Origin: Mycobacterium sp.
Lineage (GTDB): Bacteria; Actinomycetota; Actinomycetes; Mycobacteriales; Mycobacteriaceae
Assembly (NCBI GenBank): GCA_003987775.1
Contig: RXJD01000013.1
Coordinates: 1-59,636 of the forward strand
Direction: 5' to 3'
DNA: 59,636 nucleotides
Shown here: positions 27,095-46,433 of the stretch, piece by piece
Numbering within the stretch: the first letter of the stretch is position 1
Layout: each line of letters starts with the position of its first letter
Notes under the pieces: generated by a model
Told to the model about the DNA's origin: nothing
The model's database searches: none
The model's input: only the letters and a program-made list of their open reading frames with translations
Made by a program: the position numbers and the translations under genes

Positions 27095-27370
27095 ATGGCG
27101 TTGCACGGAGTCGCCGCCAAGGCGGTTCCGACGGTGGTAACCGGCCTGGTGGGGGCTGTGGCGTATGAAGGGGTGCGCAAGGCGGCCGGCAAGGCTCCGT
27201 TGCGCCGGGCGACAGTGACGGTGACTGCATGGGGCTTAAGCGCTGCCCGAAAGGCCGGACGCACCGCCGCGAAAAGTGCCGAGCAGGCTCGATTGACGGC
27301 CGCCGACGTGCTGGCCGAGGCGCGGGAGCGCTCTGCTGAGGATGGTGCGCCGCTCAAAGTGGTGGACTAG
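27095..27370 (+). CDS. DUF1490 protein, Rv0968-like (copy 2)
   Basis: A 91-residue protein from ATG 27095 with GAGGGA at good spacing. It opens [17 protein letters not shown] and ends A-P-L-K-V-V-D. Intact member of the family that the copy at 20690 lost. The pattern is a hydrophobic N-terminal half and a basic Ala-rich C-terminal half. Situated between csoR and ctpV. Confidence 0.87.
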
Positions 27371-27383
27371 GGCGCGCGCGACC

Positions 27384-29747
<2,364 letters not shown>

Positions 29748-30698: not shown

Positions 30699-30857
30699 TT
30701 CTTCTCGGCGGGGGAGCGGACTCGCGACACACGCCTCCGCTGCCCTGCCGGATGGACCCCACGACGGACCCTCCGACCTCCCGAACGTCGTTTTCCTCGC
30801 CGAGAACGGTGATTTCAACCCTGGTCAGACCCCACGTTCATCAGCCACAGTCCCCAC

Positions 30858-31643
30858 GTGAGCACCGCCGCCCTGCTAATCCTCAGCCTAGTCGCCGGCG
30901 TGGTCGTCGCGGTCGTCACCGCGCCCGTCGGCGTCTCCGGGGCAGTGTTCCTGCTGCCCATCCAACTCAGCGTCTTACACTTCCCCAACCCAACAGTCAC
31001 CCCCACCAACCTGCTGTTCAACGTCGTTGCCATTCCCGGTGCCCTGGCCCGCTACCGCCGCCGCTCACCACTGCGCAACCCGCTCACGACCACCCTGCTG
31101 CTGGGCACCGTGCCAGGCGTCATACTCGGCGCCGTCGTCCGAGTCACCCTCATCCCCGGACCCACCATATTCCGGCTGCTGGTCGCCGCATTCCTGCTGC
31201 CCCTGGGCATTTGGCTCCTGCCTACCCACCCGAAGACCCCATCCAGGCGGCCACCGGACCCTCCACCAGATTTCACCATCACGGCCGCGGTCGTCGTGGG
31301 AACCCTTGGCGGTATCTACGGGATCGGCGGCGGATCACTGCTCAGCCCAATCCTGATCGGACGCGGCATGCCGATGGCCACCGTCGCACCCGCAGCCCTG
31401 CTCACCACATTCATCACCTCCATCGCAGGCGCCGCGACCTACCTCCTGCTGGCCATCACTACCGCCGGCGGCAATATCGCCCCATACTGGACAGTCGGAA
31501 TATGTGCCGGCACAGGCGGACTCATCGGCGCCTACCTCGGGGCACTGCTGCAACCCCACCTGCCCGTACGAGTCCTACGCATCACCCTGGGCGCATCAGC
31601 AATCGCGACCGCCAGCCTCTACCTCGCACAAGCGGGGCACTAA
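30858..31643 (+). CDS. TauE/SafE-family membrane transporter
   Basis: A 261-residue protein with eight or so predicted helices and the two repeated halves of the TauE/SafE (DUF81) family: T-A-P-V-G-V-S-G-A-V-F-L-L-P near residue 20 and G-I-Y-G-I-G-G-G-S-L-L-S-P-I-L near 155. Family members export sulfite, sulfoacetate or related anions. Start GTG 30858. It lies between the copper cassette and the CmtR/CtpG-like pair; a substrate cannot be named. Confidence 0.85.
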   Translation: MSTAALLILSLVAGVVVAVVTAPVGVSGAVFLLPIQLSVLHFPNPTVTPTNLLFNVVAIPGALARYRRRSPLRNPLTTTLLLGTVPGVILGAVVRVTLIPGPTIFRLLVAAFLLPLGIWLLPTHPKTPSRRPPDPPPDFTITAAVVVGTLGGIYGIGGGSLLSPILIGRGMPMATVAPAALLTTFITSIAGAATYLLLAITTAGGNIAPYWTVGICAGTGGLIGAYLGALLQPHLPVRVLRITLGASAIATASLYLAQAGH

Positions 31644-31735
31644 AGCTGACGCGCAACCGCCGCGCGCCCACCCGGAGCCAGCCCATCCCACCCAGCACAA
31701 CGGCTGCCCGCAGCACCCCTGAGCAACCTCTGTAA

Positions 31736-31752
31736 GCGGAATGGCATTCCGC
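31736..31752. terminator. GCGGAATGGCATTCCGC hairpin between convergent genes
   Basis: An 8+1+8 perfect palindrome in the 167-bp gap between the convergent TauE-like and metal-ATPase genes. A second hairpin AACAAA-GCA-TTTGTT lies at 31795-31809 with a T-rich end for the plus strand. Both may act as terminators for the two converging operons. Confidence 0.5.
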
Positions 31753-31810
31753 CTGCTGTGCAGATGTGTCTCGGGCCTGACCGGGACCCTGCACAACAAA
31801 GCATTTGTTG

Positions 31811-33736
31811 TCATGGGCCATCAGCAGAAGTCAGGCGAACCGGAGCGCGGCCGGCTCGCACGCCGTTGGCGATGACGATGACCTCGGCTAGTTCGTGCAC
31901 CAGCACCACCGCGGCCAGGCCGAGCACCCCGAAAAGCGCCAGCGGGATCAGCGCGCTGATCAGGGCGAGCGACAGGCCGATGTTTTGCCACATGATGCGC
32001 CGGGCCCGGCGGGCATGGCTGAACGCGTGGGTGAGATGGCGCAGGTCTTCGCCCATGAGCGCCACGTCGGCGGTTTCGATTGCCACATCGGTGCCCATGG
32101 CGCCCATCGCGATGCCCAGATCGGCGGTGGCCAGCGCGGGTGCGTCGTTGACGCCGTCGCCGACCATCGCTGTGGGGTGCTGAGTGCGCAACTGGGTGAT
32201 CAGCGCGGCCTTGTCTTCGGGGCGCAGCTCGGCGTAGACGACGTCGATGCCGGCTTGGGTCGCGAGCGCAGCGGCGGTGGCGTGGTTGTCGCCGGTGAGC
32301 ATCGCCACCTGATAACCATCGCGGCGCAACGCCTCGATGACGTCGCGGGCTTCGGGGCGCAATTCGTCGCGAACCGCGATCGCGCCGATGAGCGTCTCGT
32401 TGTCTTCGACCAGCATCGCGGTCGCGCCGGCCTGCTGCATCCGATCGACCTGCGCTGCTAGGGATCCGGCGTTGATCCAGCCGGGCCGGCCGAGCCGGAT
32501 GGTGTGCCCGTCGCGGTGGCCGATCAGCCCGGCGCCGGGGACGGCCTGCACGTCATCGGCGGGGGTGACCTGGTCGGCGGCGGCCAAGACGGCCTGCGCG
32601 AGTGGATGCTCGCTGCGGGCTTCCAGGGCCGCCGCCGCGTCGAGGATTTGGTCGCGGGTGGCGCCGTTTGTGGTGGCAATCTCGATGACGGTGGGCTGGT
32701 TTGCGGTCAGCGTGCCGGTCTTGTCCAACGCCACACCACGGATTGCGCCGAGCGCCTCCAGTGCGGCGCCACCCTTGACCAGTACACCGAGCCTGCTGGC
32801 CGCGCCGATCGCAGCGACCACGGTCACCGGCACCGAAATCGCCAACGCGCACGGGGAGGCCGCCACGAGCACGACCAGGGCCCGCTCGCTCCAGAGGGCC
32901 GGGTCGCCAAACACGCTGCCCACCGCGGCGATCATCGCGGCGGCGATCATGATCGCGGGCACCAGGGGTTGGGCGATGCGATCCGCCAGCCGCTGCGAGG
33001 CGCCCCTGCGGGCTTGCTCGGCCTCCACGATCCGCACAATGCGGGCCAGCGAGTTGTCTTCGGCGGTAGTGGTCACCTCGATGCTCAGCACGCCGGCGCC
33101 GTTGATCGATCCGGCGAACACCTCATCGCCGGGGCCGGCCTCGATTGGCACCGATTCGCCGGTGATCGCCGACACGTCGATCGCGCTGCGACCCTCGCCG
33201 ATGATCCCGTCGGTGGCAATTCGTTCACCGGGCTTAACCAGCATCTGGTCTCCGACCCGCAATTCGGTTGGGGTGACGACGATTTCAGCGCCGTCGCGGA
33301 TGATGGTGGCCTGGGCGGGCACCAGCGACAGCAGCGCGCGCAGTCCTCGGCGGGTGCGCGCCAGCGCGTATTCCTCCAGGCCCTCGCTGATGGAGAACAG
33401 GAACGCAAGTGTGGCGGCCTCACCGACCTCGCCGAGGATCACCGCGCCGACCGCGGCGATTGTCATCAGCGTGCCCACCCCGATCCGGCCGCGTACCAGC
33501 CGGCGCAGCGTCGAGGGGACGAAAGTCCACGCCCCCACCGCCAGCGCCGTCGAGACCATCACGAGCTCCACCGGTCTTGACCCGTGGGTCCAGCCGACCA
33601 CGTAGCCGGCCAGTAGCAGGACCCCGGCCAGCGCGGCGGCGCGTAGCTCGGCGACCTGCCACAGCCGTTCGGGTTCGTGCTCGACTTCGTCGCCGTCGGC
33701 GGGTTGATCGTGGCCGCAGCCGCAGGCATCGCTCAT
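31811..33736 (-). CDS. P1B-4-type metal ATPase, CtpG-like
   Basis: A 641-residue ATPase with membrane motif S-P-C-A-L-A-I-S-V-P (SPC, not CPC), D-K-T-G-T-L and [11 protein letters not shown]-motif P1B-4 pumps export Co, Zn, Cd or Fe-type divalent ions; M. tuberculosis CtpG, partner of CmtR, is of this kind. The N-terminus is short, with A-C-G-C-G-H and acidic residues instead of a full HMA domain. Start ATG 33736, overlapping the ArsR-type gene by 4 bases (ATGA), so the pair is coupled. Confidence 0.9.
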   Translation of the reverse strand: MSDACGCGHDQPADGDEVEHEPERLWQVAELRAAALAGVLLLAGYVVGWTHGSRPVELVMVSTALAVGAWTFVPSTLRRLVRGRIGVGTLMTIAAVGAVILGEVGEAATLAFLFSISEGLEEYALARTRRGLRALLSLVPAQATIIRDGAEIVVTPTELRVGDQMLVKPGERIATDGIIGEGRSAIDVSAITGESVPIEAGPGDEVFAGSINGAGVLSIEVTTTAEDNSLARIVRIVEAEQARRGASQRLADRIAQPLVPAIMIAAAMIAAVGSVFGDPALWSERALVVLVAASPCALAISVPVTVVAAIGAASRLGVLVKGGAALEALGAIRGVALDKTGTLTANQPTVIEIATTNGATRDQILDAAAALEARSEHPLAQAVLAAADQVTPADDVQAVPGAGLIGHRDGHTIRLGRPGWINAGSLAAQVDRMQQAGATAMLVEDNETLIGAIAVRDELRPEARDVIEALRRDGYQVAMLTGDNHATAAALATQAGIDVVYAELRPEDKAALITQLRTQHPTAMVGDGVNDAPALATADLGIAMGAMGTDVAIETADVALMGEDLRHLTHAFSHARRARRIMWQNIGLSLALISALIPLALFGVLGLAAVVLVHELAEVIVIANGVRAGRAPVRLTSADGP

Positions 33737-34107
33737 TGCGCCACCGCCCCCGCGGTGGGTTGGCCGTAGTGCGGGCACAACGCGACCGCGCTGCCGGTGG
33801 CCTCCAGTACCGCCTCCGCGGCCTTGAACAAGTCCAGCAGCTCAACGCGGGTGAGTCGATACACCGACGCGCGGCCCTGCGGTCGGTAGTCGACCAGCCC
33901 ACAGTCTCGAAGACAGGCCAGATGCGCCGAGACAGTGGACTGGGCCAACCCCAGCTCGGTGGTCAGATCCACCACTCGCGCCTCCCCGAGCGCCAGCCGG
34001 CGCAGGATCGCCAACCGGTTCGTGTCCGAGAGGCTGTGGAATAACGCTGTTGCCGCATCCAATGACGCCGGCTCAACTGCCGCCGTCTTGCAGCCCTGCA
34101 TCGCCAT
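33733..34107 (-). CDS. CmtR-like ArsR/SmtB metal sensor
   Basis: A 124-residue winged-helix repressor. In the recognition helix region it has A-H-L-A-C-L-R-D-C-G-L-V (C65, C69) and a third cysteine C111 in the tail. CmtR uses the equivalent C57, C61 and C102 to bind Cd/Pb, and the C-L-R-x-C pattern is shared. Metal binding should release the promoter of the downstream pump. A dyad-like CATATGGCGATGATAT at the start codon could be its operator. Confidence 0.87.
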   Translation of the reverse strand: MAMQGCKTAAVEPASLDAATALFHSLSDTNRLAILRRLALGEARVVDLTTELGLAQSTVSAHLACLRDCGLVDYRPQGRASVYRLTRVELLDLFKAAEAVLEATGSAVALCPHYGQPTAGAVAQ

Positions 34108-34141
34108 ATGGCGATGATATCGCTCAATACGCCGACATCGG

Positions 34142-35554
34142 CTACCGCAGCGGTGCCGTCGGGAGCACGTCCCACAGTGGTCCCGCCGCAATGCCGAGCC
34201 CCAAGCTCCAGGCTGCCGCGACAATCGCGGTGCGTGCAGACCACCCGCCGAGGGTGAAATCGTCTGACTGATCCGGCTTCTGAAAGACCGGAGCGATCCA
34301 ACGCAGGTAGTAGAAGAGGCTCAGCAGGCTGTTGACGAACACCACCACGGCCAACCATGGGAACCCACCGTCCCAGACCGCCATGGCGGTGGTGAGTTTC
34401 GCGACGAACACACTGGTGGGCGGGGTGCCGACCAGTCCGAGCAGCGCCACCACCAGCGCCCCCGCCAGCCAGGGCCGGGCTCGCGCCAGCCCGCGGTAGG
34501 CGACAAGTGCGCGGCGATCGGGCAGTGCGGTGCTCACCGCGAAGGCGGCGCCGTTGGTCAGCGTGTAGCCGACCAGATAGAACAGCAGCGACGGCAGGGC
34601 CAGTTCGCTACGGCCGGCGACCGTGATCGGCACAAGTAGGTAGCCGACTTGACTCACTGTCGACCACCCCAGGAGCCGCCGGGGATCCTCTTGGCCGTAC
34701 GCGGCCAAATTGCCCAATGTCATACTCGCCACCGCGAATATCGCGATCAGCACCGGCCACGGCACTAGGGACGGTGGCAGCACGGCGGCCACGCGGTACA
34801 GCGCGATCAGCGCGCCGATTTTGGGCACTGTCGTCAAGAAGACGGCCGCCACACTGTTGGCAGCTTGGGCGGCGTCGGGAACCCAGAAGTGAGCGGGCAC
34901 CGCCCCCGCTTCGAACATCAGCCCGGCCGCGACGGCTACGACGCCCGTCGCCACCACCGCGGCCGGCGCCCCGCGCATTTGTGCGGCCAGTTCGTTATAG
35001 CGGGTGGCGCCGCTGATCCCATAGAGGACGGTCACCCCCAGGAGCAGGATAATCCCGAACAGGGCGCCGATCAGGTAAGTCTTCAATGCTGCCTCGGCCG
35101 CCACACCCGAGCGCAACAGCCCGATCAGTCCGTAGAGCGGGATGCTTGCCAGCAGGTATCCGGTTGCCAGGACGAGCAGGTCGTCGGTTCCGGCGAGCAC
35201 CATGACGCCGGCGGTCGAAAAGAGAAGCAGCGCATAGGTTTCGCTCTCGCGGGCAGTCGCTCTTATGTCATCGCCGGCTATGGCCAGGACCACCAGCACC
35301 CCGATCGCGGCCGTGATCCGTGCAACGCCAGTGGTGGTGTCGACGGCGAAGGCCCCGTCGAACGCCGTCTGATCCGGGGCCGCGATTCTGACCGCCGCGA
35401 CCACGACGACGCCGATAAGCGCTGCGGCTGCAACGATTCGGGCCCACCATTGACGCTGGCGGGGCAGAAATGATCCGCCGATCAGCACCAGTAGGCCACT
35501 GCCGAAAGTCAGTATTTCCGGCAGCATCAGCAGCGGCCGCATCCCGGTGTTCAC
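34142..35554 (-). CDS. NuoN-like membrane antiporter subunit of a complex I-like module
   Basis: A 470-residue, about 14-helix protein of the MrpD/NuoN fold. GTG 35554 is preferred (GGGGAG about 8 bases upstream); TTG 35557 and ATG 35542 are alternatives. It keeps a helix with V-P-K-I-G-A-L but has Leu near residue 134 where NuoN has a conserved Glu, and F-E-A-G-A-V-P-A-H (E215) where F-K-x-A-A-V-P-F-H would be expected. So the TM7-type Lys is replaced by Glu. It is the last gene of an eight-gene operon and may be altered in proton transfer. Confidence 0.85.
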   Translation of the reverse strand: MNTGMRPLLMLPEILTFGSGLLVLIGGSFLPRQRQWWARIVAAAALIGVVVVAAVRIAAPDQTAFDGAFAVDTTTGVARITAAIGVLVVLAIAGDDIRATARESETYALLLFSTAGVMVLAGTDDLLVLATGYLLASIPLYGLIGLLRSGVAAEAALKTYLIGALFGIILLLGVTVLYGISGATRYNELAAQMRGAPAAVVATGVVAVAAGLMFEAGAVPAHFWVPDAAQAANSVAAVFLTTVPKIGALIALYRVAAVLPPSLVPWPVLIAIFAVASMTLGNLAAYGQEDPRRLLGWSTVSQVGYLLVPITVAGRSELALPSLLFYLVGYTLTNGAAFAVSTALPDRRALVAYRGLARARPWLAGALVVALLGLVGTPPTSVFVAKLTTAMAVWDGGFPWLAVVVFVNSLLSLFYYLRWIAPVFQKPDQSDDFTLGGWSARTAIVAAAWSLGLGIAAGPLWDVLPTAPLR

Positions 35555-35557
35555 CAA

Positions 35558-37048
35558 CTATCTCCCCACTAGCCCGATCAGCGAGCGTGACGCCGGTTCG
35601 ATCACATCAAGCAGCGGGCGTGGCAGGACGCCGATGATGATGGAGAGCATGAGAAGCATTCCTGCCGAAGCGGATTCGCAAGGATGCAGATCGAGAAAGT
35701 TCTGTGAGTGACCGCGGGTATCGCCAGTGAACATGTTCTGAAGGGCGCGCAGAAACAAGGCGGCGGTGATCAGGATGCCCGGTAGCGCGAGCGCGGTGAG
35801 GGGTGCGGCGGCGATGCTGCCGGTGAAGATTTGGAACTCGGCGATGAAACCGGAGAATCCCGGCAGCCCCAACGACGCGAACGCGCCGAGGGTGAACAGC
35901 ACAGCCAGCTTCGGGGCCGGTGCAGCCAGACCGCCGTAGGAACTCATGTCGTAGCTGCCGGTGCGGTCGTAGAACACTCCGGCAAGCAAAAACAGCGCCC
36001 CGGTGATCAGCCCATGGCTGACCATTTGTGTGACCGCTCCACTGACCGCCACGGCCCGCGCCTGGTCGGTGCTACCCGAGAGCAGGCCGGCAGCGCCGAG
36101 CGCCAGCACGATGTAGCCCATGTGGTTTACGGAGGTGTACGCCACCATGCGCTTGAAGTCCTGCTGCGCCAACGCAACCAGGGCTCCGTAAAGCACCGAT
36201 ACGACACCGACGGCAATGATCGCCCAGGCCCAGGCGCGCCAGGCGTGCGGCAGCATCGGCATCGCGATTCGCGCGAATCCGTAAGTGCCCATCTTCAGCA
36301 ACACCCCCGCCAGCACGGCCGAGCCGATGGCCGGAGCGTCGGTATGAGCCGGGGGAAGCCAGGTGTGGAAGGGAACCGTGGGTGTCTTGACCGCCAGGCC
36401 GAGCAGGATCGCAGCGAGGACCAGCCCGCCGGCCAGCGGGCTACCTGCCAACGGGTTGGCGGTGATCAGCTCGAGCATGTCGAACGTGTGAGGGTTGGCG
36501 GCGATGTATAAGCCGATGAAGCCCACGAGCAGCGCCAGTGACCCCAGAAAGGTGTAGAGGAAGAACTTCAGCGCCGAGCGGGCGGCGTTACCGTGGCCCC
36601 ATCCGGCGATGACGAAGTACATCGCCACGATTGACAGGTCGAAGAACACGAAGAACAAGATCAGATCCGCGGCGACGAACAGACCTAGGCTCACGGTCTG
36701 CAGGAACAGGAACAACGCCGCCTGAGACCTGGGCCGGTCGCGAACCCGCAGGCTATAGGTCGCGCAGGCAAAGAAGATCACCGCCGACATGACGACCAGC
36801 GGCAGCGACAAACCGTCGACGCCGATGTGGTAGCTGCTGTTGACCCCAGGGATCCACCGGGCCCGCTCCTCGAAAGCCAGGCCGTTAAGACCCGGATTCC
36901 TGTAGCGGGTCCATGCCAGCACCGTCAACGTCAGATCCGCTGCGGCGGTGCCGACCCATACCCATCGGGCTGCGGCTTCGCCGGACTTCGGTATCGCAAG
37001 CACACCGGCCGCGGCTGCCAACGGCAGAAAAACGATCAAACTGAGCAT
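35558..37048 (-). CDS. NuoM-like antiporter subunit
   Basis: A 496-residue, 14-helix protein with the NuoM core: V-K-T-P-T-V-P-F-H-T-W-L-P-P-A-H-T-D-A-P and a lysine-bearing helix A-V-L-A-G-V-L-L-K-M-G-T-Y-G. The expected F-F-E in TM5 reads F-F-D-L-S-I, i.e. Glu to Asp. The other key Lys residues are present, so ion movement is plausible. Its stop abuts the NuoN-like start and its own start is 5 bases after NuoL. Length is normal for the subunit. Confidence 0.9.
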   Translation of the reverse strand: MLSLIVFLPLAAAAGVLAIPKSGEAAARWVWVGTAAADLTLTVLAWTRYRNPGLNGLAFEERARWIPGVNSSYHIGVDGLSLPLVVMSAVIFFACATYSLRVRDRPRSQAALFLFLQTVSLGLFVAADLILFFVFFDLSIVAMYFVIAGWGHGNAARSALKFFLYTFLGSLALLVGFIGLYIAANPHTFDMLELITANPLAGSPLAGGLVLAAILLGLAVKTPTVPFHTWLPPAHTDAPAIGSAVLAGVLLKMGTYGFARIAMPMLPHAWRAWAWAIIAVGVVSVLYGALVALAQQDFKRMVAYTSVNHMGYIVLALGAAGLLSGSTDQARAVAVSGAVTQMVSHGLITGALFLLAGVFYDRTGSYDMSSYGGLAAPAPKLAVLFTLGAFASLGLPGFSGFIAEFQIFTGSIAAAPLTALALPGILITAALFLRALQNMFTGDTRGHSQNFLDLHPCESASAGMLLMLSIIIGVLPRPLLDVIEPASRSLIGLVGR

Positions 37049-37053
37049 CTGGT

Positions 37054-38886
37054 TTACCCCACCGCTATCAGAAGCAGGACGCCTGTCACGACTATCACCA
37101 CGCTGGCGAGATAGTAGTTGTGCAGCTGGCCAGTCTGCGGTCTGCGCGCCAGCGCCCCGAGCTGACGTATTCGTGTCGCCAACGATTCCACCGCGGCATC
37201 GACACGACGGTCATCGATGCGCGCAGCCCACCTGCCGGCCTCTAGCGATCCGGACGCGACCCGGTCCACGGTGCGGTCGAGAACGTCGTCGTCGAACCGG
37301 GCGAGTGCTCGAGCCAGGTGCATGGTGGGACGGGCGACGATCACATTGGCGGCCCGTTGCAGGCCAAGCCAGTCGGCAGCCCATCGCGGCTCGGGAATCC
37401 CGAAACGCACTACCGCAGCCACGACCAGAAGCGACAACAGCGCCGAGACGGCCAACTCCGCCGCGGCCGGCTGCACCACCGAACGGTGGTCGAGGGCACG
37501 GCTGAGCGTGGATGCGATCGGCGGCAATGCCAGCACACCTGCCGTGGCGGCTCCGGCGGCTGATATCAGAATCGGAAACTGCGCAAAAGCGTTGAGCACC
37601 TTGAGATTCAGCGATTCCTGTAGTGACGCCGGCGCGCGCCAAACTGTAACGAGGATCTTCGCCGCGTAGGCCGCCGAGAGCCCGGCGGCCACCAATCCCA
37701 TGACATAGAGGGCGATCGAGTGGTCTAACGCGACCGCCAGCACTGCATCCTTCGTCGCCCACAGTGACAGCGGGGCGATTCCGGCCAGCGCGGCCGCACC
37801 GACGGTGGCGGACCAGCCGATCAGCGGCCATCGCCGGGCCACACCGTGCAGCTGGTCAAGCTGTTTGGTATTCAGCAATAGAAGCCATGCGCCGGCCGCA
37901 AGAAACAGCCCCGCCTTGGTGAACGCGTGCGCGACGAGTTGCGCGGCGCCGCCGCTGACGGTGCCTACACCGGCTGCCATCACCACGAACCCGAGCTGGG
38001 CTGCGGTGGAGGCGGCAAGCAGTTGTTTGAGGTCCCGCTGGGCTACCGCGACAGCACCGAGTAGTACCGCGGTCACGGCGCCGGACCAGGCCGCGCATTC
38101 GGCGACCCATCCCGTCGCTGCCAGCAGCGGCTGAATACGCAGCAGCAGGTACGCGCCCATGGCCACCATCGCCGCCGAGTGCAGTAGCGCGCTGACGGCG
38201 CTGGGGCCTTCCATGGCCCGGGAAAGCCAGAATGAAAACGGCAGCTGCGCCGCCTTGCCCAAGGCTGCAATGAACAGCCCGACCGCGACGATGTCGCGCC
38301 AAGGCGCGGTTGCCTGGGTCAGGTTCGCCAGCTTCAACCCCGCGCCGCCGGCAAGTGCCGCCCCGGCGCCCAGATACAGCCCGAGATCGGCGCTGCGGGT
38401 CGTCAGGAACGCGGTGAGGCCGGCCGACATCCGGAAGTCGTCGCGCCACCAGAACCCGATCAGCGCATAGGACGCCGCACCCATCAGCTCCCACGCCAGA
38501 AGCAGTGCGGGCAAGGTGGCGGCCGTTGCGGTCAGCAGGGCAGCGGAGGCGAATAACAGCATCAACCCGTGGAATCGACCCGCCGCTTCGCGAATGTCCG
38601 CTACGGCGAACATCAGGACCAAGACGGTGATCATCGCGACCGCAGGGACCACCACTGCGGACAGGCTATCGACGGACAGCCCGAATTGCCCACCGGCCAC
38701 AAAAGCGACACTGACAGCGGGGTGAGTCAGCGCCACCACGATCGACAACGCCGCCACAACCGCAGACACAGTTACCGACATCGCAGCCGCGAAACGATCT
38801 CGGGGGCGCGTGAGAAGCAGTGCCGCGCCGCAGCCTGCCGGAAGGCAGATCAACAGCCACAAGGCCAGCTGCGTCGTCGAGGTCAC
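37054..38886 (-). CDS. NuoL-like antiporter subunit
   Basis: A 610-residue protein of normal NuoL length. It has the W-E-L-M-G-A-A-S-Y-A-L-I-G-F-W helix (conserved Glu retained), G-K-A-A-Q-L-P-F-S-F-W-L-S (conserved Lys retained) and a C-terminal amphipathic region before the last helix. It is probably the distal proton- or cation-translocating subunit. It starts 4 bases downstream of the NuoK-like gene. Of the three antiporter subunits this one looks most intact. Confidence 0.92.
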   Translation of the reverse strand: MTSTTQLALWLLICLPAGCGAALLLTRPRDRFAAAMSVTVSAVVAALSIVVALTHPAVSVAFVAGGQFGLSVDSLSAVVVPAVAMITVLVLMFAVADIREAAGRFHGLMLLFASAALLTATAATLPALLLAWELMGAASYALIGFWWRDDFRMSAGLTAFLTTRSADLGLYLGAGAALAGGAGLKLANLTQATAPWRDIVAVGLFIAALGKAAQLPFSFWLSRAMEGPSAVSALLHSAAMVAMGAYLLLRIQPLLAATGWVAECAAWSGAVTAVLLGAVAVAQRDLKQLLAASTAAQLGFVVMAAGVGTVSGGAAQLVAHAFTKAGLFLAAGAWLLLLNTKQLDQLHGVARRWPLIGWSATVGAAALAGIAPLSLWATKDAVLAVALDHSIALYVMGLVAAGLSAAYAAKILVTVWRAPASLQESLNLKVLNAFAQFPILISAAGAATAGVLALPPIASTLSRALDHRSVVQPAAAELAVSALLSLLVVAAVVRFGIPEPRWAADWLGLQRAANVIVARPTMHLARALARFDDDVLDRTVDRVASGSLEAGRWAARIDDRRVDAAVESLATRIRQLGALARRPQTGQLHNYYLASVVIVVTGVLLLIAVG

Positions 38887-38890
38887 CTGC

Positions 38891-39193
38891 TCACCCGGCC
38901 AAATCGGCGGCCGCGTCGGTCATGTCGGTTCGGCGCTCGCGGTGCAGGAGCGTGGCCACCGCGAAGCCCATCGCCATCTCCACCGTCATCGCGGCGATGA
39001 TCACCAGCAGCACGACCTGTCCGGCCGGTGTGGGTGCCGAAAACCACCAGAACCCGCCGGCCGCCAGGATGACGGCGTTCATCATCAGCTCGAGGCCCAT
39101 CATGACCATGACCACGACCTGCTGCGAGAGTGCTCCGTACAGGCCGACGCTGAACAGCGCCGCCGCCGCCAGTAGAACGGTTTGTAGCGTCAT
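38891..39193 (-). CDS. NuoK-like subunit
   Basis: A 100-residue, three-helix protein, the usual length of NuoK. It contains L-Y-G-A-L-S-Q-Q-V-V-V-M-V-M-M-G-L-E-L-M-M-N-A-V-I, with the buried Glu of the NuoK second helix (G-L-E-L-M-x-N). It overlaps the NuoJ-like gene by 4 bases. Retention of this Glu suggests the central membrane proton pathway is kept. Confidence 0.9.
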   Translation of the reverse strand: MTLQTVLLAAAALFSVGLYGALSQQVVVMVMMGLELMMNAVILAAGGFWWFSAPTPAGQVVLLVIIAAMTVEMAMGFAVATLLHRERRTDMTDAAADLAG

Positions 39194-39753
39194 CGCCCCA
39201 ACCCGCCGGGTTGGGGGTCGCTCGCGGGCCTGCGTTTGAGATCGTCGCCGAAGCGGTCATAGCGGCCTCGGCGGGCGGCCAGGACGACGCCTGCGACGAT
39301 GGTCGCGACCATCACCGGGCTGATCACCGTCATAGCCAGCATGCTGGGGCCCATCAACTCCTCGCCGAGCGCGAAGGTCAGATCCTTCGGCGGTGCACCC
39401 CGCCGAATCGGCCAGTCGGACAACAGGATCCCTGACGCAAGAATCAGGAACGTTCCGATCGCAGCAGCTAACGCGCGTCGGTTGTCATGCACCATGCTCA
39501 TGGGCATCAGCGCCGGGTTCATGCCCATGAACATGACCATGTAGACCGCCATGACGGCCATCTCCATCACCATCATCAAGATGATGACGATGCCAATGTA
39601 GTTCTGCTGCAACAGCACAACGACGACGCCGACCGCAATGAACGAAATGGCCAGAGCATAGGTGGCGCGGGCCATGGAATCGAAGACGAAGACCGCGGCC
39701 CCGGCCAGCACGGCAATCACGGCGAGGACTCCGAAGACGATGTGCACGATCAT
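39190..39753 (-). CDS. NuoJ-like subunit
   Basis: A 187-residue membrane protein with five helices, including A-T-Y-A-L-A-I-S-F-I-A-V-G-V-V-V-V-L and a Met-rich helix pair (M-M-V-M-E-M-A-V-M-A-V-Y-M-V-M-F-M-G-M-N) at 65-85. The second half contains a longer loop (residues about 105-140). NuoJ lies next to NuoK in every complex I-like operon. Met density in this helix is higher than usual and may be connected to the metal context. Confidence 0.85.
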   Translation of the reverse strand: MIVHIVFGVLAVIAVLAGAAVFVFDSMARATYALAISFIAVGVVVVLLQQNYIGIVIILMMVMEMAVMAVYMVMFMGMNPALMPMSMVHDNRRALAAAIGTFLILASGILLSDWPIRRGAPPKDLTFALGEELMGPSMLAMTVISPVMVATIVAGVVLAARRGRYDRFGDDLKRRPASDPQPGGLGR

Positions 39754-39757
39754 GACG

Positions 39758-40678
39758 TCACTTCCTCACTGCGACGATGGCCACGACCAGGTCTTGGACG
39801 AGCGTGAGCGGCAACAAAATCATCCACCCGATCTCTAAGAATTTTTCGGGGCGCAGCAACGGAAGTCGCCTGCGCAGCCACACGAACACCGACAGCACGC
39901 CAATTGTCTTAATCAACACCCAGGACCAGGCCGGTAAGAGCGGACCCGCGCCGCCGCCGAGGAACATCGGCACCGCGAAAGCTGCACCGGCAGCCAAGAT
40001 GGTGTAGCGGCCGGCCTGGAATACCAGTCGATCCACCCCGGACAGCTCCGCGCTGACACCGCCGGCGATATCAGCTCCCAGCGCCGCAGAGAAGGGCCCC
40101 CACACCGAAAAAGCCATTGCCCCTAGGCAATACACGACGAAAGCGACTGGCATCCACACCGCGAACCACAGCTCGTGTTGGGCGGCGACAACATCGGCGA
40201 CCCGTAGGCTTTGCGCGGCGATGGGCGGCGCGACCAGCGTGAACATCAGGGGCAACTCGTAGCCGAGCCCATGAGCCAGAAATCGATAGCCGCCGACGAG
40301 GGGATGGGCGGAGTTCGGACCCCACCCCGCAAGCCACACCAGCGCCCACACCATCACGTCCATGGCGTTGAACCACATAACCCCTACGTCGAGATCGGCC
40401 AGCGTCCAGCGCCCTAACGGCACAACAGTCACTATTAGCGATGCGGCGACGATCAGCCCCGCTCCGCCGGCGCGCCACAGCAACGTATCGGCGGCCACGG
40501 TGGTGCGACGGCGCTGTCGCATCAGCCGGGCGACTTCGTAAACCGCATTAGCCGGCCCGGCGCCTCGGGCGGCAAGCAAGCCGTCGAGGGTCGCCGCGTA
40601 GAAGCCGAGGCACAGCAGCAATGCCACACCGCCCAGCGCCCACACGCCTGGGACCGTGGTGATCGAGACGTCAGCCAT
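39758..40678 (-). CDS. NuoH-like subunit with an altered quinone-site loop
   Basis: A 306-residue membrane protein with the NuoH pattern L-A-G-W-G-P-N-S-A-H-P-L-V-G-G and C-terminal W-L-R-R-R-L-P-L-L-R. The usual acidic loop (N-R-x-P-F-D-L-P-E-A-E-S-E) is replaced by W-G-P-F-S-A-A-L-G-A-D-I, and the E-Y-S-G/E-Y region is also simplified (A-E-L-S-G). These residues form the quinone tunnel of true complex I, so quinone reduction here is doubtful. It overlaps the NuoB-like gene by 8 bases. Confidence 0.85.
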   Translation of the reverse strand: MADVSITTVPGVWALGGVALLLCLGFYAATLDGLLAARGAGPANAVYEVARLMRQRRRTTVAADTLLWRAGGAGLIVAASLIVTVVPLGRWTLADLDVGVMWFNAMDVMVWALVWLAGWGPNSAHPLVGGYRFLAHGLGYELPLMFTLVAPPIAAQSLRVADVVAAQHELWFAVWMPVAFVVYCLGAMAFSVWGPFSAALGADIAGGVSAELSGVDRLVFQAGRYTILAAGAAFAVPMFLGGGAGPLLPAWSWVLIKTIGVLSVFVWLRRRLPLLRPEKFLEIGWMILLPLTLVQDLVVAIVAVRK

Positions 40679-41936
40679 CGCGACGACCCGGGTGCGATGC
40701 TGTGTCGATGCCTAGGCTGGCGATCCCCAGCCGGGCAGCCGCGACGTCCAGTCCGCTGACTAGATCGGGCAATGCGTCAACGACGGTGGTTGCAGCTGTG
40801 GAGACGCCAATTCGTTCGTTCGTGAGCGCGTGCTGCGCCGCATTGACCTGCGCGAGGAGGCGGTCGTAACAATCGCCGACCAGGGCCGGCGGCAGCGCGA
40901 GGGTGTCGCAGTCCTCGGGCGTCAACGTTGCGATGTCGCGCAACGACCAGCGCAGCGTTCGTGAGCGCCGGAGCTTGCTGTGCAGGGTGTCCAGCAGACG
41001 AGCGGCGTGCCCGCTGTCCGCCTCGCTGAGCAGCGCGTCGCGCGCGCTGCGGGCGCTTGCTGCCGCACCCGGCCAGCCGGCCAGTGCCAGCAGATCAACG
41101 ACATGGTCACAATGTCGCGCCGCAACGTGAGTACTCGGTCCGGTCGGCGGAACCTGCTCGCCGACTTCTCGGTCGACGATCCACGCCTCGGCTCGGGTGA
41201 GGACGTCCCCCTGTAACGAGCACCGCACCACCAGCCCCGCGGGCCAGTAGCGCAGCACCGGCCCAAGGCGAAGGTGCAGCACATCCATTTCCAATCCGTC
41301 ACGGTCGTCGCCGCCTTCGGCCAGCGCAATCCCAGCCGGCGCCATGTCCATCCCACCGTGGTGCATGTGCTGGTGTGCGCTGTGGTCCATGTGCTCGTGC
41401 CCGCCCGGACTGGGGGCGGTGTGCTCGTGATGCTCCTGCTCGCCGTGGTCCATGGCGTGGTGGTGGTGCTCGCCGTGGTTGGTGGCGTGGTGCTGGTGCT
41501 CGCCGTGGTTGGTGACGTGGTGCTCCTGCTCGCCGTGGTTGGTGACGTGGTGCTCGTGTACGCCGTGGTCGTTGCCGTTCAGCTTCGGAGATTGAGCGCG
41601 CTTTCGCGCGTCCCGGCGGTGCACCTCGACCTCCGCCAACTGCGTGCCCGCGCTATGCAGCGCCGACTCGACCGCGTCGGGACCAGCCAAGTCGATGCGA
41701 ACCCGAGGCCCCGGCATCTGGTCCCAGACCCGCTCGATCGCCTCGTTCAGTTCTGGTCCCGGGGTACCGCAGACCGCTAACACGTCAGCGTCCGCGGGGG
41801 ATGTAGCCACACACCAACCGCGGACTCGAAGTCGGTGTTCGGTCTGTGCGCGCAACATCCACGACCCAGGGGCCTCCACGATGAGCACGTGTGCCCGTCG
41901 TGCTGCGCATCGGGCCAGCTGCCGCGTCAGACCCAC
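40671..41936 (-). CDS. NuoB-like protein with His-rich repeat and NuoD-like tail
   Basis: About 421 residues from GTG 41936 (overlaps nuoA by 10 bases; an ATG at 41963 is possible). Residues 1-95 resemble NuoB (A-D-V-L-A-V-C-G-T-P-G-P-E-L, then W-D-Q-M-P-G-P-R) but lack the C-C and G-S-C cluster ligands. A His-rich linker (about 125-200) has ten-residue units around H-H-V-T-N-H-G-E, then D-H-S-A-H-Q-H-M-H-H-G-G-M-D-M. The following part (L-G-P-V-L-R-Y-W-P-A-G-L-V-V-R) resembles the first strands of NuoD. It has no Fe-S cluster, so it may bind Ni, Zn or Cu through the histidines. Role unknown. Confidence 0.75.
   Translation of the reverse strand: MGLTRQLARCAARRAHVLIVEAPGSWMLRAQTEHRLRVRGWCVATSPADADVLAVCGTPGPELNEAIERVWDQMPGPRVRIDLAGPDAVESALHSAGTQLAEVEVHRRDARKRAQSPKLNGNDHGVHEHHVTNHGEQEHHVTNHGEHQHHATNHGEHHHHAMDHGEQEHHEHTAPSPGGHEHMDHSAHQHMHHGGMDMAPAGIALAEGGDDRDGLEMDVLHLRLGPVLRYWPAGLVVRCSLQGDVLTRAEAWIVDREVGEQVPPTGPSTHVAARHCDHVVDLLALAGWPGAAASARSARDALLSEADSGHAARLLDTLHSKLRRSRTLRWSLRDIATLTPEDCDTLALPPALVGDCYDRLLAQVNAAQHALTNERIGVSTAATTVVDALPDLVSGLDVAAARLGIASLGIDTASHPGRRDG
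41431..41580. repeat. 30-bp tandem repeat encoding the His-rich linker
   Basis: Units begin at 41431, 41461, 41491, 41521 and 41551 (last one degenerate). All contain TCGCCGTGGT in register, translating on the minus strand into ten-residue His-Gly-Glu units. Such repeats can change copy number by slippage. Confidence 0.85.
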
Positions 41937-42271
41937 CGCAGGACGCCCTCGCGCCAAGCCCATGCGACCGCCACAAGCAGCACCGCCAGAAACGCAAACA
42001 TTTCGGTGATGGCGGTCGCGCCCATTTTGATGACCACCAGCGCCCACGGATACATGAACAGCATCTCGACGTCGAAGGCGAGAAACACCAGCGTCGCCAG
42101 ATACCAGCGAACGTGATACCGCGACAACGCATGCTCTTCAGGTGGCCATCCTGACTGAAAAGGCAGCACCGTCAACGTGTTAGGGCTGATCGCACTGAAG
42201 CAATGCAATCCGTACACACTGGCAAGCCCCGCAACAACAACCGCCAGGGTCCACGCCACACCCGCATACAT
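41927..42271 (-). CDS. NuoA-like subunit, first gene of the complex I-like operon
   Basis: A 114-residue, three-helix protein with the NuoA signature F-D-V-E-M-L-F-M-Y-P-W. The loop normally holding E-C-G (the conserved Cys near the quinone site) reads F-Q-S-G, so that Cys is lost. ATG 42271; the upstream gap to the divergent LOG gene carries the promoter. Conserved membrane half, altered redox-side residues. Confidence 0.88.
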   Translation of the reverse strand: MYAGVAWTLAVVVAGLASVYGLHCFSAISPNTLTVLPFQSGWPPEEHALSRYHVRWYLATLVFLAFDVEMLFMYPWALVVIKMGATAITEMFAFLAVLLVAVAWAWREGVLRWV

Positions 42272-42549
42272 CGCGGCTCCTCGTCTGTCGTGGTGGCACG
42301 AACTCGGTACCGTCGCGGCCGCTTCTAAACCCAAGTCGTCGATGACTTCCATCGGCAGTGCTAGTCCGCAGGCGCTGTCGTCGCCAGGCAGTGGCCGTTC
42401 AAATAACGTATCAGCCCTTAGCCAGTGCGGAGATTCTCGACTGACGGAGATTCGGTCGCGATCACTCCTCAGCCCAACCGGTGACAAGACGAAGTGGTAT
42501 AGGGCGCATCAGTTTCTTTGGTGCCTTGGCCGTGGCACGATCGGCTCAA

Positions 42550-43278
42550 ATGCAAGAGTCATCAAATTGCGTCCCCGCGACATGCGACGAGGAGTTGCTG
42601 TCCTGCCTGGGGCCGGGCTTTCCGCCGCTGTCGGGCAGCGATCCCGGCCGGGTCGCCAGGATCCGCGACGAGGTGGCGCATGGTTTTGCGGCCCTAGCGG
42701 ATGTCACCCATGCCGTGTCGTTCTTTGGTTCCGCGCGGACGCCGCCGGATCATCAGCACTACAAGATGGCGCGCACGCTGGCCGCACACTTAGGCAGCTT
42801 GGGGTTTGACATCATTACCGGCGGGGGGCCGGGGATCATGGAGGCCGCGAATCGGGGCGCCCGCGACGCCGGCGTGCGGTCTATAGGCCTTGTCATCGAG
42901 CTGCCTTACGAGCAGCGGCCTAACCCGTTCATCGACCTCTCACTTCAGTTCAATTACTTCTTCGTGCGCAAGTTGATGTTCGTCCGCTATGCCTCGGCGT
43001 TCGTAGTTCTTCCGGGCGGCTTCGGCACACTTGACGAGCTTTTCGAGGCCCTGACGCTGATACAGACTCAGAAGATACGCAACTTCCCTGTCGTACTTGC
43101 GTGTTCGGACCACTGGACCGGGTTGGAACGTTGGATTCGTGACCGGCTGTTGGACACGGGACTGGTGTCGGGTGCCGACGTCGACTTGCTCGTGATCGCC
43201 GATGATCCGGGGGAGATCGGCGAGTTGGTGAAGCGATGGCGCCGACGACAGTTGGAGACTTACCGGCCATCTCGGTGA
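42550..43278 (+). CDS. LOG-family (lysine-decarboxylase-like) protein
   Basis: A 242-residue protein from ATG 42550 (the frame opens at 42481). It has the family motif P-G-G-F-G-T-L-D-E and G-G-G-P-G-I-M-E-A-A-N-R-G-A. These Rossmann-fold proteins are nucleotide-5'-monophosphate phosphoribohydrolases (LOG) or close relatives. Mycobacterial homologues are known. It is divergent from the complex I-like operon; no metabolic link to metal resistance is seen. Confidence 0.9.
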   Translation: MQESSNCVPATCDEELLSCLGPGFPPLSGSDPGRVARIRDEVAHGFAALADVTHAVSFFGSARTPPDHQHYKMARTLAAHLGSLGFDIITGGGPGIMEAANRGARDAGVRSIGLVIELPYEQRPNPFIDLSLQFNYFFVRKLMFVRYASAFVVLPGGFGTLDELFEALTLIQTQKIRNFPVVLACSDHWTGLERWIRDRLLDTGLVSGADVDLLVIADDPGEIGELVKRWRRRQLETYRPSR

Positions 43279-43873: not shown

Positions 43874-43888
43874 TACCCTAGGGGGGTA
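43874..43888 (+). promoter_or_regulatory. copper-box before copZ
   Basis: TACCCTAGGGGGGTA, a TACCC-N5-GGGTA type element 47 bases before the CopZ-like start. Same general class as the 25688 site and fits RicR/CsoR control. Confidence 0.6.
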
Positions 43889-43934
43889 TGGTAGACAGAG
43901 ATTACCAAGCGTTAGCTACAGATTGGAGAGCGGG

Positions 43935-44141
43935 ATGAGCACCTTGACCGTCACCGTTTCTGGGATGACCTGCGGGCACTGCGTTTCTTCTGTCCGTGAG
44001 GGAGTCGGCAATATCCCTGATGTCACGGCAGTGGACGTGGAGCTCGGCAGCGGCAAAGTGACCATCGACAGCGATGGCGTGATCGAGCTTGATGCGGTCA
44101 AGAACGCGGTGGAAGAGGCCGGCTATCAGCTGGTCCGCTGA
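43935..44141 (+). CDS. CopZ-like copper chaperone (HMA domain)
   Basis: A 68-residue HMA protein with G-M-T-C-G-H-C (C13, C16). Such chaperones shuttle Cu(I) to ATPases. ATG 43935 with GGAGAGCGGG upstream. Followed after 42 bases by a CopA-type ATPase, so the two form a copper-handling operon. The C-x-x-C has Gly-His between the cysteines. Confidence 0.9.
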   Translation: MSTLTVTVSGMTCGHCVSSVREGVGNIPDVTAVDVELGSGKVTIDSDGVIELDAVKNAVEEAGYQLVR

Positions 44142-44183: not shown

Positions 44184-46433
44184 ATGGACTCCGCCACGGA
44201 AACCACCCGTCATCTTGAGCTGCGGATCGGTGGGATGACGTGTGCGTCGTGCGCGGCTCGGATTGAGAAGAAGCTCAACAAGATCGACGGTGTCAGCGCT
44301 TCGGTCAACTATGCCACCGAGCGGGCTCACGTCGACTACGTCGGCGACGTCGCACCCGATCAGTTGGTGGCGACGGTGGCGCAGGCGGGCTATACCGCGG
44401 AAGCGGCCAGTCAGGGTTCAGCGGCTATGAACCACGAGGCTTCCCCGCCGGTCGCAGAAACCGATCCGGCGGCGGCGATAAGGCAACGGCTGCTGGTTTC
44501 ACTGGTGTTGACCGTGCCGGTGCTTGCGATGGCCATGGTGCCCGCCCTGCAGTTCGCCAATTGGCAGTGGCTCTCGCTGACGCTGGCCGCGCCGGTGGTG
44601 GTGTGGGGAGGTCTGCCATTCCACAAGGCCGCCTGGGTGAATTTGCGGCATCGCACCGCCACCATGGACACCCTGATCTCGATGGGCACGATCGCCGCCT
44701 TGGGTTGGTCGGTCTACGCGTTGTTCTGGGGCACGGCCGGTATGGCGGGCATGAGGCACCAATTCGAGCTGACGATCTCCCGTAGCGATGGCACCAGCAA
44801 CATTTATCTGGAGGCCGCCGCAGGCGTCACCACCTTCATCCTTGCCGGCCGGTTTTTCGAGGTCCGCTCCAAGCGGCGGGCCGGTGCGGCGCTGCGGGCG
44901 CTGCTAGAGCTCGGCGCCAAGGTGGTCGCGGTGCGCAGAGACGGTGTCGAGCACCGCATCCCGATTGAGCAGCTCGCTGTTGGTGACGAATTCGTGGTGC
45001 GCCCTGGTGAGAAGGTGGCTACCGATGGCCTGGTGATCGAGGGCTCCTCGGCGGTGGATGCCTCCATGCTCACCGGGGAGTCGGTGCCGGTTGAAGTAAG
45101 CCCCGGAGATCAGGTAGTGGGCGCCACCGTCAACGTCGGCGGACGAATAGTGGTGCGCGCCAACCGGATCGGTGCAGATACTCAGTTAGCGCAGATGGCG
45201 AGGCTGGTCGAAGAGGCGCAATCGGGCAAAGCGCAGGCGCAGCGGTTGGCGGATCGCATATCGGGGATCTTCGTGCCGATCGTGATTGCGCTGTCGCTGG
45301 CGACACTTGGGTTCTGGATCGTGACAACCGGATCCATCGCCGCAGCTTTCACTGCGGCGGTGGCGGTGCTGATCATCGCATGCCCGTGTGCCCTGGGTCT
45401 GGCCACGCCGACCGCCTTGATGGTCGGCACCGGCCGTGGGGCCCAACTCGGGATTTTGATCAAGGGACCCGAGGTGCTGGAGTCGACACGGCGAATCGAC
45501 ACCATCGTGCTCGACAAGACCGGTACCGTCACCACCGGCAACATGGCCCTGCTGGATGTGATCGCTGCGCGCGATGAACAACCCGCTGAGGTGCTGCGGT
45601 TGGCGGGCGCGCTGGAGGACTCTTCTGAGCACCCGATCGGCAGGGCGATCGCCCGGGCAGCCCGTGAGAAAATCGGCCAGTTACCCAGCGTCGAGGGTTT
45701 CGCCAACCGGGAAGGGTTGGGCGTGCAGGGAATCGTCGAGGGTCACGCTATGACAGTGGGCCGGCGACTCCTGGCGGATCGCTCGCAGCAGCTACCGGAC
45801 AGCCTCACCGGGTCGTTGGGTCAGGCCGAGTCGGAAGGCAAGACCGCGGTCGTGGTCAGCTGGGATGACACGGCCAGGGGAATCCTGGTGGTGGCGGATT
45901 CGGTCAAGCCGACGTCGCACGAGGCCGTCGAGCGGCTGCGAGCGCTGGGTTTGACCCCGATCATGCTGACTGGCGACAACACGGACGCGGCCCGTGCGAT
46001 CGCCGGGCAGGTGGGCATCGACCAGGTCATCGCCGAAGTGCTGCCGCAGGACAAGATGGAAGTTGTACGGCGGCTGCAGGCCGAGGGCAAAGTGGTGGCC
46101 ATGGTCGGTGACGGTGTCAACGACGCCGCGGCCCTGGCGCAGGCCGATTTGGGGCTTGCGATGGGGACCGGCACCGACGTCGCGATCGAGGCCAGCGATC
46201 TGACACTGGTCAGCGGAGACCTGCGCTCGGTGCCCGCCGCCATCGAGCTCTCGCGTAAGACGTTGGCGACGATCAAAGGCAACCTGTTCTGGGCATTCGC
46301 CTACAACATCGCCGCTTTGCCGCTGGCAGCCGCCGGCCTGCTCAACCCCATGCTGGCGGGTGCGGCTATGGCGTTCTCCTCGGTATTCGTGCTGACCAAC
46401 AGCCTCCGGCTCCGCACCTTCAAACCGAACTGA
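44184..46433 (+). CDS. CopA-type copper P1B ATPase
   Basis: A 749-residue ATPase with an N-terminal HMA domain G-M-T-C-A-S-C (C20, C23), C-P-C (about 399), D-K-T-G-T (about 443) and G-D-G-V-N-D (about 637). P1B-1, Cu(I). Resembles CtpA/CtpB-type rather than CtpV, since it retains the C-x-x-C. In operon with the CopZ-like gene. Probably exports Cu(I) delivered by the chaperone. An extra loop between TM2 and TM3 (about residues 185-205) is somewhat long. Confidence 0.93.

Follow-up and report, generated by a model that had tools for sequence, protein, structure and literature searches.

A contig of 59,636 bases from a Mycobacterium sp. genome (RXJD01000013.1 of assembly GCA_003987775.1; parent genome 7.29 Mb), which we treat whole and call the window, carries at 34142-42271 of its minus strand eight genes in tandem, adjacent ones overlapping or standing apart by a few bases. 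Along the operon they encode NuoA, a NuoB/NuoD fusion (the B-D protein), NuoH, NuoJ, NuoK, NuoL, NuoM, and NuoN. We suggest that this module specifies a redox-free, proton-coupled Cu(I) (possibly Ag(I)) complex of the complex I superfamily, working by the mechanism proposed below; we infer the transport and its direction, and regard the reading as a whole as reasonably probable. The weaker claim, that this is a redox-free complex that handles Cu(I)/Ag(I), can be made with good confidence. According to the broader claim, the module is a copper transporter of a new class, namely a Cu(I)/Ag(I) pump driven by the proton motive force and derived from the complex I membrane arm. The proton channels would there be partnered by a methionine ladder in NuoJ, NuoK, and NuoA instead of by quinone chemistry, and the pump would spread on plasmids and islands in Actinobacteria and Proteobacteria. 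We rate that claim as evenly balanced.

How complex I couples its quinone chemistry to proton movement, via NuoH/J/K/A and L/M/N, has long been debated. The module would represent a widespread natural variant in which the redox chemistry has been removed, the proton machinery kept, and the coupling region rebuilt with metal-type ligands. If this is true, it provides a redox-free handle on the coupling mechanism, a new bacterial route for dealing with copper, and a corrected meaning for database entries labelled “NADH-quinone oxidoreductase.”

A complex I membrane arm without redox subunits

Pfam identifies NuoA, H, J, and K plus three antiporter-like proteins, for which the top NCBIfam models are NuoL, M, and N (only NuoM reaches the NCBIfam cut-off). 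With Escherichia coli subunits and the host's own canonical ones as tblastn queries, no NuoB, C, D, E, F, G, or I was found in the window. Gene calls, family models, and this search together confirm what an initial annotation of the same DNA had described, namely eight minus-strand genes of a membrane module with no E, F, G, I, or normal C/D.

For a residue census, 78-81 module sequences were aligned with the E. coli and canonical host subunits. Invariant or nearly so are E144, K229, H254, H338, K342, K399, and D400 of NuoL; K234, K265, H322, H348, and E407 of NuoM (in which position E144 is Asp in 78/78); K158, K247, and K395 of NuoN; E36 and E72 of NuoK; D79 and E81 of NuoA; and E157 and E228 of NuoH. 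The initial annotation had judged the membrane residues of NuoL and NuoK to be mostly kept, as the key positions here bear out. The residues of L, M, N, and K also hold in seven more distant proteobacterial loci (groups P1 and P2, see below) save for conservative swaps, and NuoA D79 is Glu in P1. Position K217 of NuoN is Lys in 56/78 sequences and Glu in the other 22, including the window, a natural charge swap at a proton-path position.

The residues around the quinone site have fared differently. NuoH E36, D213, E216, E218, and E241 are replaced in nearly all module sequences, in agreement with the loss of the acidic quinone loop reported initially, and part of that loop (the D213, E216, E218 region) survives in P2. 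NuoA E51 is Gln in 74% of module sequences. This change is more telling than the missing cysteine of a NuoA “ECG” motif, which had been offered as a sign of the same loss; we dropped that argument, as E. coli NuoA itself reads ESG and the cysteine is not diagnostic. By these sequence criteria the module resembles a proton-translocating membrane arm of the complex I superfamily, and it is without the features that would make it complex I: the NuoE/F/G module, the N2 ligands, and the quinone site (the NuoD GPxHP histidine and the NuoH acidic loop).

The NuoB-NuoD fusion and its metal segment

As judged from alignments, the second gene is a fusion of NuoB, a His-rich linker, and a NuoD remnant, with neither cluster nor quinone ligands. 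Pfam returns no significant hit for the window protein, whose NuoB hit is weak (E 4.4e-5, far under cut-off), and its identity is bridged through relatives. In each of the four P2 fusions (L201-L204), one chain combines a weak NuoB-like start (PF01058, E 0.002-0.02, below cut-off), one to three heavy-metal-binding HMBD domains (PF19335, E 4e-14 to 2.5e-44), and a NuoD region with a significant PF00346 match (E 3e-16 to 3e-13); the single L203 protein holds both HMBD (E to 2.5e-44) and NuoD (E 3.3e-16). Two of the three P1 fusions match NuoD (E 2e-7 and 6e-7), and the third (L200) does not. The HMBD domains of the four proteobacterial proteins sit at the linker position, between the NuoB and NuoD remnants, where the actinobacterial members have (M)DHG-type repeats. 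Among these actinobacterial members (n = 78), median counts in the 100 linker residues that precede the NuoD block are 15 for His (range 2-26) and 7 for Met (range 0-22).

We take the segments CC, CANSGG, and GCPPRPE to hold the N2 cluster ligands of NuoB, and GPxHP to be the quinone ligand of NuoD. The NuoB segments are gone in 16/16 fusions aligned to E. coli and canonical host NuoB; in the same 16 proteins GPxHP is mostly GPVL or GPFF, and the His is lost. The initial annotation had described the gene product as a NuoB-like protein stripped of cluster ligands. The stripping stands; the identity does not, given the alignment and the PF00346 matches of the relatives. Two cysteines of the B-D protein, C56 and C239, are nearly invariant in actinobacterial fusions (at least 90% of 44), and the P1/P2 fusions have no Cys at the C56 position.

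A methionine ladder in NuoJ, NuoK, and NuoA

Methionine is a classic ligand of Cu(I)/Ag(I). In module NuoJ (n = 79), 16 alignment columns are Met in 98%-100% of sequences, and 12 of them fall in the third hydrophobic segment (TM3) and the following loop, a feature that the initial annotation did not notice. Twelve of the 16 are kept across P1 and P2, ten of those in TM3 plus loop. These twelve core positions were then scored, with the caveat that they were chosen for conservation from the same module sequences: all 86 module rows (79 + 7, after realignment) have Met at 12/12. Among 11 named plasmid copies outside the selection set, ten have 12/12 and one 11/12. The score is 1/12, with the same column each time, for 18 canonical NuoJ sequences (E. 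coli, the host's own, and 16 of 17 obtained from the class). We infer that the Met-rich loop after TM3 is cytosolic, because the C-terminus of NuoJ is positively charged.

The pattern extends to two neighboring subunits. Family-conserved residues are M29, M31, M32, M69, and M73 in NuoK and, across 81 sequences, M70, M73, H47, and H53 in NuoA. Every group shares NuoK M29, M32, M69, and M73 and NuoA M70, M73, and M91; the host's canonical NuoA has Met at M91 as well. NuoK M73 lies next to E72, and NuoA M70 next to a conserved Glu. Methionine makes up 9.7% of module NuoJ (vs. 3.3% in E. coli and 4.2% in the host's canonical protein) and 10.1% of module NuoK (vs. 5.0% and 8.0%), and there is no rise in L, M, or N.

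Distribution, gene order, and phylogeny

The module was found in 12/100 genomes drawn around the host, and strong NuoJ matches in 5/148 genomes of the class (host counted in both); its distribution is therefore patchy. Locus-level counts refer to the best 80 of 188 relatives, with one genome per species, and so lean to closer relatives. All 80 are from Actinobacteria, except two from Lysobacter. The order A-[B-D]-H-J-K-L-M-N (sorted by stop codon) is present in 77/80, and the remaining three are broken off at contig ends (two stop after L, one after B-D). No canonical NuoB, C, D, E, F, G, or I was detected within the 80 loci (blastp, E 1e-6). Across Pseudomonadota, a NuoJ relative at E 1e-8 occurs in 7/349 genomes (the Lysobacter center counted), and an order-level draw of 151 adds one. 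The seven proteobacterial loci besides Lysobacter, which make up groups P1 and P2, show 33%-45% identity and identical gene order.

Many copies are on plasmids, including those of environmental and clinical mycobacteria. Window positions 30000-42566 (12,567 bases) match one end of the record of pMpg-1 of Mycobacterium paragordonae (circular, 305,730 bp) at 100.0% identity. The window fusion protein matches 16 plasmid records, all actinobacterial (tblastn), and the P2 and P1 fusions as queries yield 12 further records and 8, respectively, giving 36 in all. From 20 of these, stretches were inspected: 15 retain all eight genes in order, four copies (all actinobacterial) are degraded, and the Vreelandella copy is not judgeable from its annotation. 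The degraded copies are those of Ornithinimicrobium (broken frames), Pseudarthrobacter (a shortened B-D gene followed by an IS3 element), Rhodococcus oxybenzonivorans, and Streptomyces NBC_00080 (remnants in both). One plasmid record, “Dysgonomonadaceae bacterium zrk40,” equals a Martelella lutilitoris plasmid in length (166,348) and match, and may be mislabelled. A single scan of viral contigs with the window protein, which detects close relatives only, gave no match.

In a NuoM tree of 34 rows, the 16 module rows plus P1 and P2 form one clade (100/98) separate from canonical NuoM; the tree program warned that some outgroup branches are long. Transfer of the module between phyla seems to have taken place, because the Lysobacter NuoM (L097) nests within the actinobacterial part of the tree, next to Janibacter. 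Between the window and pMAH135 of Mycobacterium avium, dN/dS is 0.08-0.25 for the seven membrane genes (Nei-Gojobori, own script). Because the residues above are fixed and these ratios are low, the module is kept by selection for function rather than decaying; we thus reject family-wide gene decay, although single degraded copies exist.

Copper genes and CsoR-type operators around the module

Flanks of the 80 loci were searched for five families (P1B ATPase, CsoR, HMA, multicopper oxidase, and DUF305), with seeds from annotated plasmids, and compared with 39 control stretches of 20 kb taken at fixed positions from genomes of the same order. At least one family flanks 53/80 loci vs. 1/39 controls. 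Two other gene types appear as candidate copper-island partners, an F510_1955-family glycosylhydrolase gene (18/80 loci vs. 0/39 controls) and a CcdA-like gene (10/80 vs. 0/39).

The excerpts of PMC3902906 available to us give the type-2 CsoR consensus as ATATACCCCTNAGGGGTATAT and describe CsoR as a regulator of copper efflux systems. A CsoR-type site, TACCC-N(1-8)-GGGTA, lies within 300 bp upstream of nuoA in 15/79 loci. Operon bodies (642 kb) contain no such site and the controls (780 kb) contain two; the flanks have 35 upstream (632 kb) and 26 downstream (241 kb). The 15 own-promoter sites are far above background. Six of the 15 loci have none of the five families, which brings the loci with either sign to 59/80. 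The BlaI/CopY-type operator TACA-N-TGTA was not found in any of the 80 promoters.

Named copper-resistance genes occur within 12 kb in five of seven plasmid stretches from the P groups and Rubrobacter. In Rubrobacter, genes for DUF305, a P1B ATPase, a metal-sensitive regulator, and a copper ion binding protein directly precede the operon. Halomonas KO116 has CopC, CopD, azurin, a two-component system, a multicopper oxidase, and CopB as neighbors; Roseovarius has CopB and a multicopper oxidase ~6 kb upstream; Sulfitobacter has CusA upstream and CopB downstream; and Nitratireductor has one multicopper oxidase and CopD. Of the other two, Paracoccus has only a heavy-metal P-type ATPase, and nearly all Vreelandella neighbors are annotated as hypothetical. 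The Roseovarius, Paracoccus, and Lysobacter (L097) copies each have a DUF6629 gene immediately before the module, on its upstream side.

In the window, a CopZ-CopA pair lies upstream of the operon on the other strand. The initial annotation had placed a metal-pump operon upstream. An ArsR/SmtB and P1B-ATPase pair does adjoin the module, downstream of nuoN rather than upstream, and on the same strand (31811-34101).

Canonical complex I in the hosts

The window module is an extra one, because the same genome has a complete canonical nuo operon on another contig (C48). (A separate cluster with NuoB-, NuoD-, and NuoL/M/N-like genes, on contig C25 at 110000-128000, looks like hydrogenase-4/formate hydrogenlyase.) The initial annotation had named nuoE, F, G, and I elsewhere as an observation that would count against its reading. 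They are there, and their presence is not decisive in view of the other hosts. We searched 31 host genomes (for 32 of the 80 loci, selected by us, none mycobacterial; L054 is absent). Neither NuoD (PF00346) nor NuoF (PF01512) was matched in 15 of these 31, for which assembly completeness is not stated, and in a sixteenth NuoF alone was unmatched. Assembly gaps are an unlikely cause of 15 double absences. Because these 15 hosts are without NuoD and NuoF, their modules cannot depend on canonical electron input.

Relation to known systems

The module has the same seven membrane subunits as complex I (NDH-1), in canonical relative order, with the proton-path Glu, Lys, and His residues kept. It differs in having no NuoE/F/G/I/C, a fused and ligand-stripped NuoB plus NuoD, a metal linker, and a Met ladder. 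The Mrp Na+/H+ antiporter is a redox-free complex with NuoL/M/N- and K-like subunits, and the module antiporter proteins do match Mrp models. In the comparison with complex I and Mrp that the initial annotation had proposed, the NuoL/M/N models outscore the Mrp models, and, unlike Mrp, the module keeps NuoA, NuoH, and a B-D protein with a metal segment; it comprises A, BD, H, J, K, L, M, and N instead of MrpA-G. Sequence comparison of two subunits with solved structures gives nothing beyond ordinary relatives: chains of complex I, NDH, and antiporters for NuoM, and for NuoJ a single chain, 6hum_G, which we take to be from cyanobacterial NDH-1.

On the metal side, HMBD (PF19335) is, we assume, a domain of CusB/CopA-type copper/silver proteins. 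One to three copies in the four proteobacterial B-D proteins make these resemble that group, from which the actinobacterial members differ by their (M)DHG-type repeats; we know of no case of HMBD inside a complex I subunit. The copper context is shared with the P1B ATPase CopA and the RND pump CusA, of which the latter has a methionine-lined path. Unlike both, the module has neither ATPase nor RND homology and would be proton-driven through its antiporter subunits. Anatomically the module belongs to the complex I superfamily; no counterpart is known for its pairing of a metal link with a redox-free build, or for the function that this pairing implies.

Relatives have been described before. The portions of the text available for Salinispora (Penn and Jensen 2012, PMC3314556) report seven membrane genes, termed a “second partial NDH-1 operon,” as a marine adaptation gene set, with proteobacterial relatives. 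Those for Kocuria flava S43 (PMC6002675) list nuoA, H, J, K, L, M, and N, note that the organization agrees with Salinispora, and name K. polaris CD08_4 as a carrier. These operons very probably belong to the same family as the module, because the gene content matches and K. polaris CD08_4 (L108) is in our 80-locus set. In the portions seen, both papers favor a respiratory or ion-motive marine reading and do not mention the B-D fusion, the ligand loss, the Met ladder, or a copper role of the nuo genes. The main texts on pMAH135, nontuberculous mycobacterial plasmids, M. kansasii, and pMpg-1 contain neither “nuo” nor “NADH.” No copper-linked complex I derivative is among the literature matches listed, which comprise titles and the starts of abstracts and cover few subscription papers.

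Proposed mechanism and rival explanations

The metal is most likely Cu(I)/Ag(I), because CsoR-type operators, HMBD domains, copper-gene neighbors, and the NuoJ/K/A methionine ladder all point to it. The initial annotation's idea of a complex I derivative that lost its redox chemistry, kept its proton machinery, gained a His-rich segment, and is linked to metal is supported, with the metal narrowed. In the mechanism that we propose, cytosolic Cu(I) would be picked up by the linker of the B-D protein and handed to the former quinone cavity, which together with the E-channel would serve as the entry. The ion would then cross the membrane along the NuoJ/K/A methionine ladder, while NuoL/M/N admit protons whose influx would power the cycle. 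Overall this would amount to complex I in reverse, with a metal gate where the quinone chemistry was. Outside the cell, multicopper oxidase and DUF305-type proteins might handle the metal. The outcome is most likely copper efflux or tolerance, efflux being more likely than uptake because of the neighboring genes and the CsoR logic.

Several observations weigh against this interpretation. None of the five copper families flanks 27/80 loci, and 21/80 have no promoter site either. Around 24 of the 27, 89 open reading frames picked by length and nearness fall into 97 Pfam families, of which the 25 most frequent include no copper family and share no function; among ten proteins viewed singly, the only metal-related one is a cation-efflux protein beside Lysobacter (L097). 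The controls of the copper census come from chromosomes and were not matched by taxon or replicon. No CsoR-type site is present in the nuoA promoter of the window itself, the nearest one preceding copZ-copA. NuoH E157 is lost in P1 and P2. The methionine content of NuoK is just modestly over that of the host's canonical NuoK. In NuoJ TM3, Met 61, 65, 68, 72, and 76 lie inside 80 degrees on a helical wheel, and the eight core TM3 methionines jointly are no more clustered than random (p 0.14), so we do not use a one-faced stripe as proof. The His count in the last 100 residues of the linker swings from 2 to 26, His-rich segments also bind Ni and Zn, and the linker is presumed to be in the cytosol.

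The module might instead be an Mrp-like monovalent cation/H+ antiporter or ion pump for salt or pH adaptation, with the copper genes as island hitchhikers. The Salinispora and Kocuria papers, in the parts seen, read the seven-gene partial NDH-1 this way, the antiporter subunits are intact, several plasmid hosts are marine, and the 21 loci with neither copper sign fit. We think it unlikely, as it leaves the fixed Met ladder, the HMBD insertion, and the CsoR-type operators unexplained, and many hosts are soil or clinical strains. Neighbors that include multicopper oxidase, azurin/cupredoxin, cytochrome c, and CcdA-like genes would suit a copper importer or a metallation machine feeding multicopper oxidases or cytochrome oxidase, or an outward Cu(I) mover that solely loads cuproenzymes. 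The co-located efflux and resistance genes CopA, CusA, and CopB, and sites for a regulator described, in the excerpts of PMC3902906, as controlling copper efflux, make this quite unlikely.

Copper could also stand in for the Fe-S clusters of a complex that keeps redox activity, such as proton pumping linked to the oxidation of Cu(I) or the reduction of Cu(II). The metal-binding segment does lie between the NuoB and NuoD remnants, on the former electron route; however, the GPxHP His pair of NuoD and most NuoH quinone-loop acids are gone, and the ladder is in the membrane part rather than the peripheral arm. We consider this improbable. That the module is a spare membrane arm for the host's canonical complex I is suggested by the complete nuo operon in the window's genome, and is very hard to credit when NuoD and NuoF are both unmatched in 15/31 hosts (completeness not stated, as above) and the quinone and cluster sites are lost; we therefore reject co-assembly. 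We retain the proton-coupled Cu(I) complex as the favored explanation.

Features of the window

Table 1. Coordinates of the module genes, their parts, and metal-related neighbors in the window
Feature	Position	Strand	Support
NuoA-like	41927..42271	-	Pfam Oxidored_q4 E 2.6e-24
NuoB/NuoD fusion, 421 aa, whole gene	40671..41936	-	
Fusion, NuoB-like part, ~aa 1-100	41637..41936	-	TIGR01957 E 4.4e-5, below cut-off; aligned with NuoB of E. coli and canonical NuoB of the host
Fusion, His/Met/Asp-rich linker, ~aa 101-199, candidate metal collector	41340..41636	-	
Fusion, NuoD remnant, ~aa 200-421	40671..41339	-	bridged via relatives with significant PF00346; alignment
NuoH-like	39758..40678	-	PF00146 E 1.1e-41
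NuoJ-like	39190..39753	-	PF00499 E 8.6e-10
NuoJ methionine ladder, aa 60-89 (M60, 61, 63, 65, 68, 72, 74, 76, 78, 83, 85, 87 and H89)	39487..39576	-	98%-100% conserved (n = 79); ten of the Met kept in the seven P1/P2 loci
NuoK-like	38891..39193	-	PF00420 E 3.4e-13
NuoL-like antiporter subunit	37054..38886	-	PF00361 E 5.1e-46
NuoM-like antiporter subunit	35558..37048	-	TIGR01972 E 1.3e-141
NuoN-like antiporter subunit	34142..35557	-	TIGR01770 E 3.8e-82, below cut-off
ArsR/SmtB metalloregulator, directly 3' of nuoN	33733..34101	-	NF033788 E 6.2e-24; start per pMpg-1 annotation
P1B-type heavy-metal ATPase	31811..33736	-	TIGR01525 E 3.1e-172; start per pMpg-1 annotation
CsoR-type operator-like site TACCC-N-GGGTA, before copZ-copA	43874..43888	.	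operator type per PMC3902906
CopZ-like copper chaperone	43908..44141	+	NF033795 E 4.9e-17, below cut-off
Copper P1B ATPase, CopA type	44184..46433	+	TIGR01511 E 3.6e-164
Second copper P1B ATPase	27342..29747	+	TIGR01511 E 1.2e-176

Two further genes of the contig can be mentioned. A LOG-family gene (TIGR00730; 42559-43278, plus strand) is divergent from the nuo operon and lies between it and copZ-copA, and a gene for a PPE-family protein is located elsewhere on the contig (8440-10233, minus strand).

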